Origin: Geodermatophilus marinus | GTDB lineage: Bacteria; Actinomycetota; Actinomycetes; Mycobacteriales; Geodermatophilaceae | Direction: 5' to 3' | Assembly: GCF_003428645.1 (NCBI RefSeq) | Contig: NZ_QVQH01000015.1 | Coordinates: forward strand, 1-64,000 | Length of the DNA stretch: 64,000 nucleotides | Part shown: positions 1 through 64,000 of the stretch, piece by piece | How the letters are laid out: the number at the start of each line of letters is the position of its first letter | How positions within the stretch are numbered: the stretch's first letter is position 1 | Notes under the pieces: model-generated | The model's database searches: none | Seen by the model: the letters and a program-made list of their open reading frames with translations, nothing else | Told to the model about the DNA's origin: nothing | Made by a program: the position numbers and the translations under genes

Positions 1-920
1 GGGCTCAGCGCGTCCAGGGGTGCGGTGAGCTGCAGGTGCACCGCCACCGGCTCGGCGTCCACCGCCCAGGGGCGCAGCACCAGGTCGGCCAGCGCGGCCA
101 CCCGCAGCTGCCCGAGCGGGCGGGCGTCACCGGCGGCCCGCGCGGCGCGGGCGTGCGCGTCCAGGACACCGCGGCAGGCGCGGGCCAGCGGCCAGGGCAG
201 CCGGGCGACCAGGTCGCCCATGCCGTCCCCGGCCGCACGAGCCTTCACATCGGCGGCGCGCTCGGCGTCGCGGCGGCGGCGCTCGGCCGGGTCGGCGTCG
301 CGGGCGGTCAGTTCGCGGCGCACCGCCGCCCGCAGCCGGGACACCGACCAGTCGCCGGCGTGCGGCAGCACCGCGGCCTCGACCGCGGCGATGATCCGCG
401 GGCCGGTGGCCCGGGCCGGCCAGCCCAGCTCGCGGGCGATGGCCCGGGCCCGCGGCCAGTCCAGCCGCCCGCCGGCCAGCGCCGCGCGGGTGGCCGGCAG
501 CCGCTCGGTGAGCGTGAGCGCCTCGTCGGTGAGCACGGTGGCGGCGGTGCGCGAGCAGTTGAGGATGACCGCCAGCTCGTCGCCGAAGAACTCGCTGACC
601 CCCTCGGGCGGGCCGGGCGCCCCGGCCGGGTCGGCGTCGGGGCCGGCGGCGCCCGGCGCTCCGGCCGGCCGGTCGTGCACCGCGGGCCGGTCGGCGGCCA
701 GCGCCGCGACCAGCTCGACCTTCGGCCCGGCCAGCACCGCCTCGGCGGCGATCAGCTGCTGCAGCAGCCGGGCGTTCTCCGCGGCGTCCCGCCGCGGCGG
801 CAGCCAGCCGGCCAGCGGCCCGGCCGGCAGCGGATCGGGGTCGGCCGGCTCCCACTCCGACGGGCGCGGGTCGAGCGGGGTCACCATCACCCCGACCTCG
901 TACCGCGCCCCGATCGCCAT
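1..920 (-). CDS. DUF222 / 13E12-type HNH endonuclease family protein, N-terminal part (runs off window edge)
   Basis: The reading frame opens at ATG 920 and is still open at base 1, giving about 306 residues without a stop. An in-frame stop lies just upstream at 932-930, so this start is well constrained. The protein matches, almost segment by segment, the complete paralogue at 62237-63934: SEFFGDELAVILNCSRT at about residues 109-125, then RLDWPRARAIARELGW, then a VAALADLVLRPWAVD stretch near the edge. That identifies the DUF222 domain. The HNH nuclease domain expected at the C terminus lies outside the window. Family members are multi-copy in actinobacteria, and their biochemical role is poorly defined. 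The start sits only six bases after a -10-like hexamer, so the mRNA may be leaderless. Confidence 0.85.
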   Translation of the reverse strand, partial: MAIGARYEVGVMVTPLDPRPSEWEPADPDPLPAGPLAGWLPPRRDAAENARLLQQLIAAEAVLAGPKVELVAALAADRPAVHDRPAGAPGAAGPDADPAGAPGPPEGVSEFFGDELAVILNCSRTAATVLTDEALTLTERLPATRAALAGGRLDWPRARAIARELGWPARATGPRIIAAVEAAVLPHAGDWSVSRLRAAVRRELTARDADPAERRRRDAERAADVKARAAGDGMGDLVARLPWPLARACRGVLDAHARAARAAGDARPLGQLRVAALADLVLRPWAVDAEPVAVHLQLTAPLDALS

Positions 921-926
921 GCCCGC

Positions 927-948
927 ACGCTAGGCCGGGGGTACGACA
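927..948 (-). promoter_or_regulatory. Putative DNA-damage-type promoter (RecA-NDp-like), leaderless
   Basis: On the minus strand the element reads TGTCGTAC, eight bases, then TAGCGT, with six bases to the ATG at 920. The layout TGTCR...N8-TAnnnT is that of the mycobacterial RecA-NDp (PafBC/ClpR-dependent) promoter, although the last three bases of the -35-like box differ from the published consensus. The same element with the same spacings precedes the paralogue at 63934. Transcript start and regulator are inferred. Confidence 0.5.
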
Positions 949-1093
949 GAAACCGGCCGCTGACCAGCACCTTCCGGGGAATTCCGCGTCGTCCGGTCCC
1001 CGGCGCAGCGGGCGGGCAGCAGCGTCCGCGACCGCCGAGCAGCGGTGTGCGAGTGCGGCGGCCGGCCGCGAGAGCGGGCGCCGGCGGCGGACC

Positions 1094-62236: not shown

Positions 62237-63934
62237 TCAGAAGGGTGGGGGGTCGTCGGCGGGGTCGGCCGGCGGCGCGGGCGCACCGGCGAGCAGGCGG
62301 GAACCGGTGACCGGCAGCATCGGCGGACGGCCGCCGGGCGGTCCTCTGCGTGGGTCGGGCCCCGGCGGTGCGGGCGGCCCCGGTGCTCCCGTGCCGCCGG
62401 GTGGGCGACCTCGCGCCTCGTGCTGGACGGGTGGCCGGCTGGTCCGGGTCACTCCGCTGGGGGCTTCCACGGTCAGGACGCCGTCGGGGCCCATCCGGAC
62501 GAGCCACCCGGGCGCGTGCGTCTTGAGCCGGTGATGCCGTCGGCACAGGCAGCACAGGTTCGCGCAATCCGTCTCGCCGCCGCAGGCGTGCGGTACGACG
62601 TGGTCCAGATCCGCCCACCCGGCCCGGTTGCCGCAACCGGGGTGGCGGCAGGTGCGGTCGCGGGTCCGGACGAACAGCCGCTGGGCGTCGGTCGGCCGGT
62701 AGGCGTCGGTGGGCGCGGGCCGGTCCAGCACCGGGCAGCCGCAGTCCCCGCCGGGATGGGCGGGGCAACCGCGGCGGGCCAGCCGTTCGAGCTGCCGACG
62801 GTCGACCACCGCGCGCAGCGTGCCGTCCGGATCGGTCAGCGCGATGGACAGGCTGCCGCCGGGCGGGGCCTGCAGACCACCGGGGCACAGCGAGTCGAGC
62901 TGGGTGAGCAGCTCGCGCAGGTGGCCGGCGGTGATCGGCTCCCCGTTCACGCTCCCGGTGGGGGCGGGGGCCGAGCCGGGTGGGCGGAACGCCGCCGGGG
63001 GCGAGCCGCCGTCGGCGAGGAACCGGGCGGGGGTCAGCGCATCGAGCGGCGCGACGACCTCGAGGTGGGCGGTGACCGTCTCGCCGTCGACCGCCCAGGG
63101 CCGCAGGACCAGGTCGGTCAGCGCCGCCACACGCAGCACGCCGAGCGGGCGCGGGTCCCCGGCGGCCTTGGCCGCGCGGGCGTGCGCATCGGCGACGCCC
63201 CGGCACGCCACCGCCAGGGGGTGCGACATCCGCGCCACCAGCTCGCTCATGCCGTCGCCGAGCGGTTTGACCGTCACGTCCGCCGCGGCCTCCGCATCCC
63301 GGCGGCGCCGTTCGCCGGCGTCGGCGTCCCGGGCGAGCAGCTCCCGGATCACCAAGGCTCGCAGCGCGGACACCGACAGCTCGCCGGCGATGGGCAAGAC
63401 CGCGGCCTCCACCGCTTCGATCACCCGGGGATCGGTGCCGCGCGCCTTCCAGCCGAGCTCCCGGGCGATGGCGCGGGCCCGGGGCCAGTCCAGCCGCCCG
63501 TCGGCCAGGGCGGCGCGGGTCGCGGGCAGTTTCTCGACCAGGGTGAGCGCGTCGTCGGCGGTCACCGAGGCCTGGGTGCGGCTGCAGTTCAGGACCAAGG
63601 CCAGTTCGTCGGCGAAGAACTCGCTGGCGCCGTCCGGGGTGCCGGGGCCGGGCAGGTCGTGCACGGGAGCCCCCGGCTGCTCCGGCCGCCGGTCGGCGGA
63701 ATCGGGCCGGTCGGCCGCCAGCCCGGCGATCAGCTCTGCCTCGTAGGCGGCGAGCCGGGCCTTCAACTGCTGCACCCGGCCCAGCTCGAAGGCCTTCTCG
63801 CCGGCCGACCGTGCCTCCACCGGTAGCACCTCCGACAGGCGCGCAGCACGCTCGCCCGGCGGAGACTCCTGGGCGGCAGCCCCGGCCAGGTCGGCCACGG
63901 CCAGACCGACCCCGAACGCGCCACCGGTGAACAC
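62237..63934 (-). CDS. DUF222 / 13E12-type HNH endonuclease family protein
   Basis: This is a 565-residue protein. The DUF222 domain (about 25-380) contains SEFFADELALVLNCSRTQAS and RLDWPRARAIARELGWKA. The C-terminal HNH nuclease shows RTRDRTCRHPGCGNRAGW, DLDHVVPHACGGETDCANL and CRRHHRLKTHAPGW with a complete Cys/His set. A proline/glycine-rich tail of about 50 residues follows. It is the close paralogue of the truncated gene at 1-920 in the same orientation. GTG 63934 lies six bases after a -10-like hexamer, which supports a leaderless start. Confidence 0.92.
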   Translation of the reverse strand: MFTGGAFGVGLAVADLAGAAAQESPPGERAARLSEVLPVEARSAGEKAFELGRVQQLKARLAAYEAELIAGLAADRPDSADRRPEQPGAPVHDLPGPGTPDGASEFFADELALVLNCSRTQASVTADDALTLVEKLPATRAALADGRLDWPRARAIARELGWKARGTDPRVIEAVEAAVLPIAGELSVSALRALVIRELLARDADAGERRRRDAEAAADVTVKPLGDGMSELVARMSHPLAVACRGVADAHARAAKAAGDPRPLGVLRVAALTDLVLRPWAVDGETVTAHLEVVAPLDALTPARFLADGGSPPAAFRPPGSAPAPTGSVNGEPITAGHLRELLTQLDSLCPGGLQAPPGGSLSIALTDPDGTLRAVVDRRQLERLARRGCPAHPGGDCGCPVLDRPAPTDAYRPTDAQRLFVRTRDRTCRHPGCGNRAGWADLDHVVPHACGGETDCANLCCLCRRHHRLKTHAPGWLVRMGPDGVLTVEAPSGVTRTSRPPVQHEARGRPPGGTGAPGPPAPPGPDPRRGPPGGRPPMLPVTGSRLLAGAPAPPADPADDPPPF

Positions 63935-63940
63935 GACCCG

Positions 63941-63962
63941 AAGCTATCCGGCAGGTACGACA
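63941..63962 (-). promoter_or_regulatory. Putative DNA-damage-type promoter (RecA-NDp-like), leaderless
   Basis: On the minus strand the element reads TGTCGTAC, eight bases, then TAGCTT, with six bases to GTG 63934. It is the twin of the element at 927-948. A further shared block (CTGACCAG on the plus strand, 63973-63980 and 960-967) lies upstream of both. Confidence 0.5.
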
Positions 63963-64000
63963 CTTCCGGGCGCTGACCAGGGACGACGAGCGACGGTGCG

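Follow-up and report, generated by a model that had tools for sequence, protein, structure and literature searches.

Two DUF222 genes in the window (the whole 64,000-base stretch of DNA analyzed here, which is bases 1-64000 of contig C7 of a 5.23 Mb genome) are each preceded by an element that we read, with a probability of about 0.8, as a PafBC-type (RecA-NDp-type) promoter that would make a leaderless mRNA and that lies within a copied DUF222/HNH unit. The mycobacterial RecA-NDp consensus is TTGTCRGTG-N8-TAnnnT. An earlier note on this DNA had reported TGTCGTAC-N8-TAGCnT followed by six bases before the start codons at 920 and 63934, and both occurrences were confirmed, each on the minus strand.

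Gene 1 (3..920, minus strand; PF02720, E 1.1e-13) has 306 codons before the contig edge truncates it. Its upstream DNA, on the same strand, contains the block CTGGTCAG in gene orientation (960..967), an exact match to the first box TGTCGTAC (941..948, read 948-941) in columns that are conserved, an 8-base spacer, the -10 hexamer TAGCGT (927..932), six bases without a Shine-Dalgarno sequence (921..926), and an ATG (918..920) that, from the spacing, is the predicted leaderless +1 of both transcript and translation. Gene 2 (62237..63934, minus strand, 565 amino acids; PF02720, E 7.6e-12) has the same block CTGGTCAG at 63973..63980, an exact TGTCGTAC box at 63955..63962, the -10 hexamer TAGCTT at 63941..63946, six bases at 63935..63940, and a GTG at 63932..63934 as its predicted leaderless +1, all on the minus strand. 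Counting the start codon as +1, the box spans -28 to -21 and TAGCnT spans -12 to -7. The exact TGTCGTAC-N8-TAGCnT pattern was found in the window at these two sites only; when three mismatches were allowed, four matches were obtained against 3.4 expected, so the signal resides in the exact matches and the loose ones were not used. Identical boxes and spacings had been claimed for the two sites, and this holds for the box, the N8 spacer, and the six-base gap but not for the distance from upstream block to box, which measures 11 bases at the first site and 10 at the second. The shared upstream block is present at both sites, its corrected reading being CTGGTCAG in gene orientation and CTGACCAG on the plus strand. 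The surroundings of the twin sites do differ, likely because the gene and a minimal promoter were copied.

Both genes had also been described as encoding HNH nucleases. The DUF222 domain scored above the Pfam cut-off in both, and an HNH-like stretch was detected only in the C-terminal part of gene 2 (residues 442-466, about 62537-62611; HNH_5, E 0.0057), at 17 bits and thus below the curated cut-off of 27.5; gene 1 is truncated by the contig edge ahead of its HNH part, which falls outside the window. Neither window protein matched a defence family in PADLOC, and the gene 2 protein had no match in NCBIfam. Contig ends frequently coincide with DUF222 copies or lie close to them: the ends of C7 and C18 fall inside a copy, those of C20 and C56 are about 1.1 kb or less from one, and further examples are C17 and C23 of genome G006 and C10 of genome G010, as expected of similar dispersed repeats.

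In each -10 hexamer the TAG, 12 bases ahead of the start codon, forms an in-frame stop codon, and hence the reading frames of both window genes cannot begin further upstream. For both genes the -10 hexamer ends six bases from the start codon, with no ribosome-binding site and no in-frame upstream start; because of this spacing, the missing ribosome-binding site, and the in-frame stop, the transcripts are predicted to be leaderless, in support of the earlier reading. The box alone is no proof of a leaderless start, since another DUF222 gene of this genome, on contig C56, carries the box and has a leader with a ribosome-binding site.

In the published structure, PafBC, once activated by ssDNA, lies between SigA domain 4, which PafC contacts, and the promoter, where PafB reads a motif at -26 (PMC11804915); the position of TGTCGTAC at -28 to -21 fits the published PafB site. 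In cells with damaged DNA, activated PafBC would bind the TGTCGTAC box, at about -26, and replace the -35 contact that sigma-A lacks here; TAGCnT would then direct initiation at the start codon's first base. The box, the spacing, and the start codon would be parts of a DUF222/HNH gene unit that copying has spread through the genomes of Geodermatophilaceae, with sister copies bearing a LexA-type operator in place of, or overlapping, the same promoter. For the window genes and their promoters, we infer PafBC binding, damage induction, the transcript start, and nuclease activity from sequence. The prediction of PafBC-type leaderless promoters is itself well supported at the sequence level, and describes a variant of a known promoter with a wider pattern behind it.

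Within the whole genome, TGTCGTAC-N8-TAnnnT was found five times exactly and its reversed pattern not at all. Four of these sites precede DUF222 genes (the two window genes and one gene each on contigs C45 and C56), and the fifth lies where contig C18 ends, before 44 codons that are nearly identical to the start of gene 1. The leaderless form TGTCG-N11-TAnnnT-N6-RTG gave nine matches in the genome (control, 0): six DUF222 starts, one of them the C18 contig-end fragment, together with radA (identified by TIGR00416), ybaB-recR (recR, TIGR00615, lies just downstream of ybaB on the same strand), and an azlC-like gene. A chance origin of the elements was ruled out by these exact counts against the reversed controls. 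At recA, a related box is found as TGTCGGAC-N8-TAGCGT, with a 40-base leader to the ATG and an SOS-type palindrome further up. The comparison with other DUF222 genes, recA, and further PafBC targets proposed in the earlier note thus came out in its favor, and the element does occur before other family members, at six DUF222 starts, although the strict box is missing in 12 of the 18 DUF222 genes. The genome encodes PafC (PF19187 HTH_PafC, E 3e-41, with WYL/WCX), and the adjoining WYL/WCX protein is presumably PafB; NCBIfam named neither paf protein, and two frames upstream of the PafB-like gene, when tested, gave no match to PafA. The spacing, the conservation of the element, the sites at recA, radA, and ybaB-recR, and the genes for PafC and a PafB-like protein all support the PafBC/RecA-NDp-type reading.

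The promoter appears to belong to the DNA that is copied. Fifteen of 17 fetched copies gave a usable frame for edge mapping, and 25 PafBC-type paralogue pairs within four genomes were 85-93% identical. The upstream edge of their common DNA lies between 1 and 19 bases above TGTC, with 12 pairs at exactly 15, and the common DNA reaches to about the stop codon: its downstream edge is within 2 bases of the stop in eight pairs, falls short of the stop by 32-232 bases in 14, and overshoots it by 10 or 22 bases in two, while in one pair it lies 665 bases past a shortened frame. In the three pairs above 91% identity, in which longer common flanks would have shown, the upstream edges are at 15, 15, and 3 bases. 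The promoter was so, by these edges, probably copied along with the gene in PafBC-type copies. For the gene 2 site, no joined-flank match spanned the junction among the matches listed in 14 relatives. The right flank of another copy, L288 of genome G005, is kept in four of seven searched genomes, and no homologue of the L288 protein was found by tblastn in those four loci. In genome G006 the left-flank match at this locus stops 23 bases before the right-flank match, and roughly another 680 bases next to the unit are absent as well; this wider gap makes it a case of presence or absence of L288 and not of precise insertion.

Such edges would also be expected if the twin elements were alike only through gene copying and the box were a hitch-hiking sequence without a role, an explanation that we regard as improbable in view of the conservation of the element. 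Of 53 named relatives of gene 2, found by similarity to it and thus not independent, 52 belong to Blastococcus, Geodermatophilus, or other Geodermatophilaceae, and 36 had upstream DNA and were counted (the other 17 began at a contig edge). TGTC[GA]-N11-TAnnnT is present in 32 of the 36 (reversed control, 0), and the nearest in-frame start after the -10 hexamer lies at 6 bases in 22 of these, at 7 in nine, and at 0 in one. An SOS-like palindrome (up to 2 mismatches) is additionally present in 11 of the 32, beginning at the last T of the -10 hexamer and covering the start codon in nine and containing the -10 hexamer in two; of the four relatives without the box, two have an SOS-like site. Among 44 dereplicated DUF222 promoters, obtained from 62 with six-base spacing, the box, the spacing, and the preceding AA stay sharp while the spacer varies: columns left unfixed by the search (AA at -3/-2, and T5 and A6 of the box) carry 1.8-2.6 bits of relative entropy, compared with means of 0.49 for the spacer and 0.05 bits per base at -70 to -25. 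Moreover, the unrelated radA, ybaB-recR, and recA carry the same layout or box, which argues against a hitch-hiking sequence.

Leaderless matches were found in all 21 genomes searched in the order, 13 of the genus and eight outside it; for the latter, a part of the listed matches was read in detail. The 13 genus genomes contain 102 such matches (reversed pattern, 0 in all 13): 46 before DUF222 genes, 11 before ybaB-recR, eight before radA, six before an amidase, six before an unnamed family, four before pafA, two before dop, two before a DAK gene, and 17 before others. Two of the 46 DUF222 assignments, L115 and L137, are doubtful, with frames of only 20-24 codons at the motif; L168, counted among the 17 others, is a DUF222 5' fragment, and the remainder of the 17 precede genes without an obvious repair link. 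For radA, ybaB, recR, azlC, and the amidase, one example each was checked by search and the other members were assigned by N-terminal signature; the names pafA, dop, DAK gene beside recG, uvrB, polA, and ligA are our assumptions from N-terminal sequence. The amidase-like gene has the leaderless promoter at L108, L112, L121, L143, L150, and L166 (PF01425, checked for L108 only). The unnamed family (about 265 amino acids, with LRWAVTDGP near the N-terminus) has it at L086, L111, L129, L135, L176, and L177, and L086, the sole member searched, had no match in Pfam or NCBIfam. The pafA- and dop-like genes with a leaderless box are L113, L114, L132, L142, L163, and L164, five of the six with TGTCGCC; these boxes would place Pup-system genes under the same kind of promoter.

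The first box differs between these groups, with the tetrad GTAC following TGTC in 39 of 46 DUF222 promoters versus 4 of 56 other matches. The difference could mean a different reader, and the genome has five WYL matches; an alternative sigma factor or another WYL regulator, in place of PafBC, is thus a conceivable but rather unlikely factor for these leaderless promoters. Against it, the -10 hexamer and the spacing are identical, and GTAC swaps with GG-type boxes within the genus at radA and one other family: TGTCGTAC occurs in one of eight radA promoters (TGTCGT, the other seven being TGTCGG) and in two of six members of the unnamed family, where the sisters are mostly TGTCGG. PafBC stays our preferred reader of the box. 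The layout had been described as that of the mycobacterial promoter except for three bases; the TGTC core, N8, and TAnnnT indeed agree, and GTAC is better described as a DUF222-linked variant that the repair promoter radA can take.

In the part of the M. tuberculosis report available, the motif is given as TGTCGG, TGTCAG, or TGTCAC-N10-TA-N3-T (PMC8151990), and the window boxes, which read TGTCGT, are one base off these variants. The promoters described here share with RecA-NDp/PafBC promoters of mycobacteria the TGTC core and the N10 distance from the hexamer to TAnnnT (N8 from the eight-base box), and this genome has the element at recA, radA, and ybaB-recR and encodes PafC and a PafB-like protein. 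Unlike those promoters, the DUF222 promoters mostly have TGTCGTAC and not TGTCGG, their start codon lies mostly six or seven bases after the -10 hexamer, and some carry a LexA-type palindrome over the -10 hexamer or the start codon. The results suggest that TGTCGTAC is a variant of the PafBC box used beyond the mycobacteria. An experimental precedent for translation that begins where the transcript does is M. tuberculosis LexA (PMC2897130).

DUF222 is highly multiplied in the genus, each of 13 genomes having between 10 and 21 matches. Four genomes gave 69 matches, of which 64 were analyzed (three contig-edge fragments and two below cut-off were left out) and 61 were counted (three had under 100 bases upstream). 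With an SOS-like box defined by sequence as TCGAAC-N4-GTTCGA with up to two mismatches, 13 of the 61 genes have only a PafBC-type box, 32 only an SOS-like box, 10 both, and six neither, many of the counted genes being related, so that these are not independent events. A damage-type box is therefore present in 55 of 61 genes, versus 0.8 in shuffles and 2 with reversed patterns; 40 rounds of dinucleotide shuffling gave means of 0.05, 0.75, and 0 and maxima of 1, 3, and 0 for PafBC-type, SOS-like, and both, and the reversed patterns gave 0, 2, and 0. For the 18 genes of this genome the numbers are four PafBC-type, 10 SOS-like, two both, and two neither. These counts suggest that most of the family is wired to DNA-damage control.

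With so many relatives bearing SOS-like sites, the window genes might really be LexA genes with a missed operator. We consider this very unlikely, as no TCGAAC-N4-GTTCGA site with up to 2 mismatches lies near the start of either window gene, and we retain the PafBC-type assignment for both.

Damage control of HNH/13E12 genes is already known in mycobacteria. The sources, as far as available, list five putative HNH endonuclease genes among the RecA-dependent genes of M. tuberculosis (PMC8151990), ten HNH 13E12-family genes among its predicted LexA targets (PMC4181829), genes in which a RecA-NDp motif and an SOS box occur together (PMC8223512), and REP13E12/HNH/DUF222 as a repetitive element (PMC10589994). 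Like the LexA-regulated HNH (13E12/REP13E12) genes of M. tuberculosis, the genes described here would be HNH genes under a DNA-damage regulator; in contrast to them, the window genes have a PafBC-type box and no SOS box, and the family is split between both kinds of site. In our literature search, no report was found of PafBC promoters before DUF222 genes, nor was a description found of the GTAC box, the nested PafBC/LexA sites, or the copied unit; the coverage was partial, and these are weak negatives.

Every one of the 10 dual genes has its palindrome either overlapping the -10 hexamer or immediately after it, and in six the hexamer lies inside the palindrome; the first box is weak in two of the 10, L210 and L216. 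In one example, CCGAAC-GTAT-GTTCGG surrounds TATGTT 19 bases before the start codon. This geometry places predicted repressor and activator sites on one promoter. The mycobacterial recA promoters P1 and P2 similarly combine LexA-independent and LexA-dependent control on one gene (here, the sites are named by sequence), but they are described, in the accessible part of the source, as two separately replaceable promoters (PMC5656591), whereas the sites of the dual genes overlap or abut. The overlap would imply a two-key logic. More speculatively, and with somewhat less than even odds, PafBC-type DUF222/HNH genes might be portable units with their own damage switch, wired to PafBC only, to LexA only, or to a two-key promoter in which a LexA operator over or abutting the -10 hexamer makes full expression require LexA cleavage as well as ssDNA-activated PafBC. 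Production of the nuclease would in that case be confined to severely damaged cells, in which the cutting of strands could promote spread of the unit by recombination. The damage-regulator sites in 55 of 61 copies, and a promoter copied with its gene, would indicate when the presumed nucleases act. The prediction gives two regulators, three promoter classes, and a +1 at the start codon, and the natural PafBC/LexA overlaps lend themselves to work on the use of a single -10 hexamer by both an activator and a repressor.

The tight edges of the copied unit hold for PafBC-type copies only, since those of SOS-type copies differ. Among nine SOS-type paralogues of this genome (36 pairs), common DNA usually begins 60-90 bases above the SOS site (at 196 in one pair, and only at -12 or +1 in four) and usually ends between 76 and 121 bases beyond the stop codon, with a shorter reach in some pairs. 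A long upstream layout of GTCAA, TGTGGACA, CTGASCTGSGGATTC or similar, a -10 hexamer, and an SOS-like palindrome is common to many of the SOS-type DUF222 loci L008-L016, L060, L066, L189-L192, L195, and L197. We take TGTGGACA to be DnaA-box-like, TTGTCCACA presumably being the DnaA box.

A role of the upstream block as a part of the PafBC promoter was not supported, recA and radA being without it. A related block also lies upstream of SOS-type DUF222 genes, at another distance. With one mismatch allowed, CTGASCTGSGGATTC occurs at 13 sites in this genome (control, 0), nine upstream of DUF222 genes and four elsewhere, and the block is thus not exclusive to DUF222; two of the four other sites are next to tRNA-Pro and tRNA-Ala, at their 3' ends. 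The block CTGACCTGCGGNTTC, known from upstream of DUF222 genes, also occurs, exact or with one mismatch, directly 3' of tRNA-Pro(GGG) and tRNA-Ala(TGC) genes, at positions 1501-1515 in L330, 945-959 in L354, 1017-1031 in L351, and 1501-1515 in L346, and it was also found beside apparent tRNA fragments in L329, L333, and L341.
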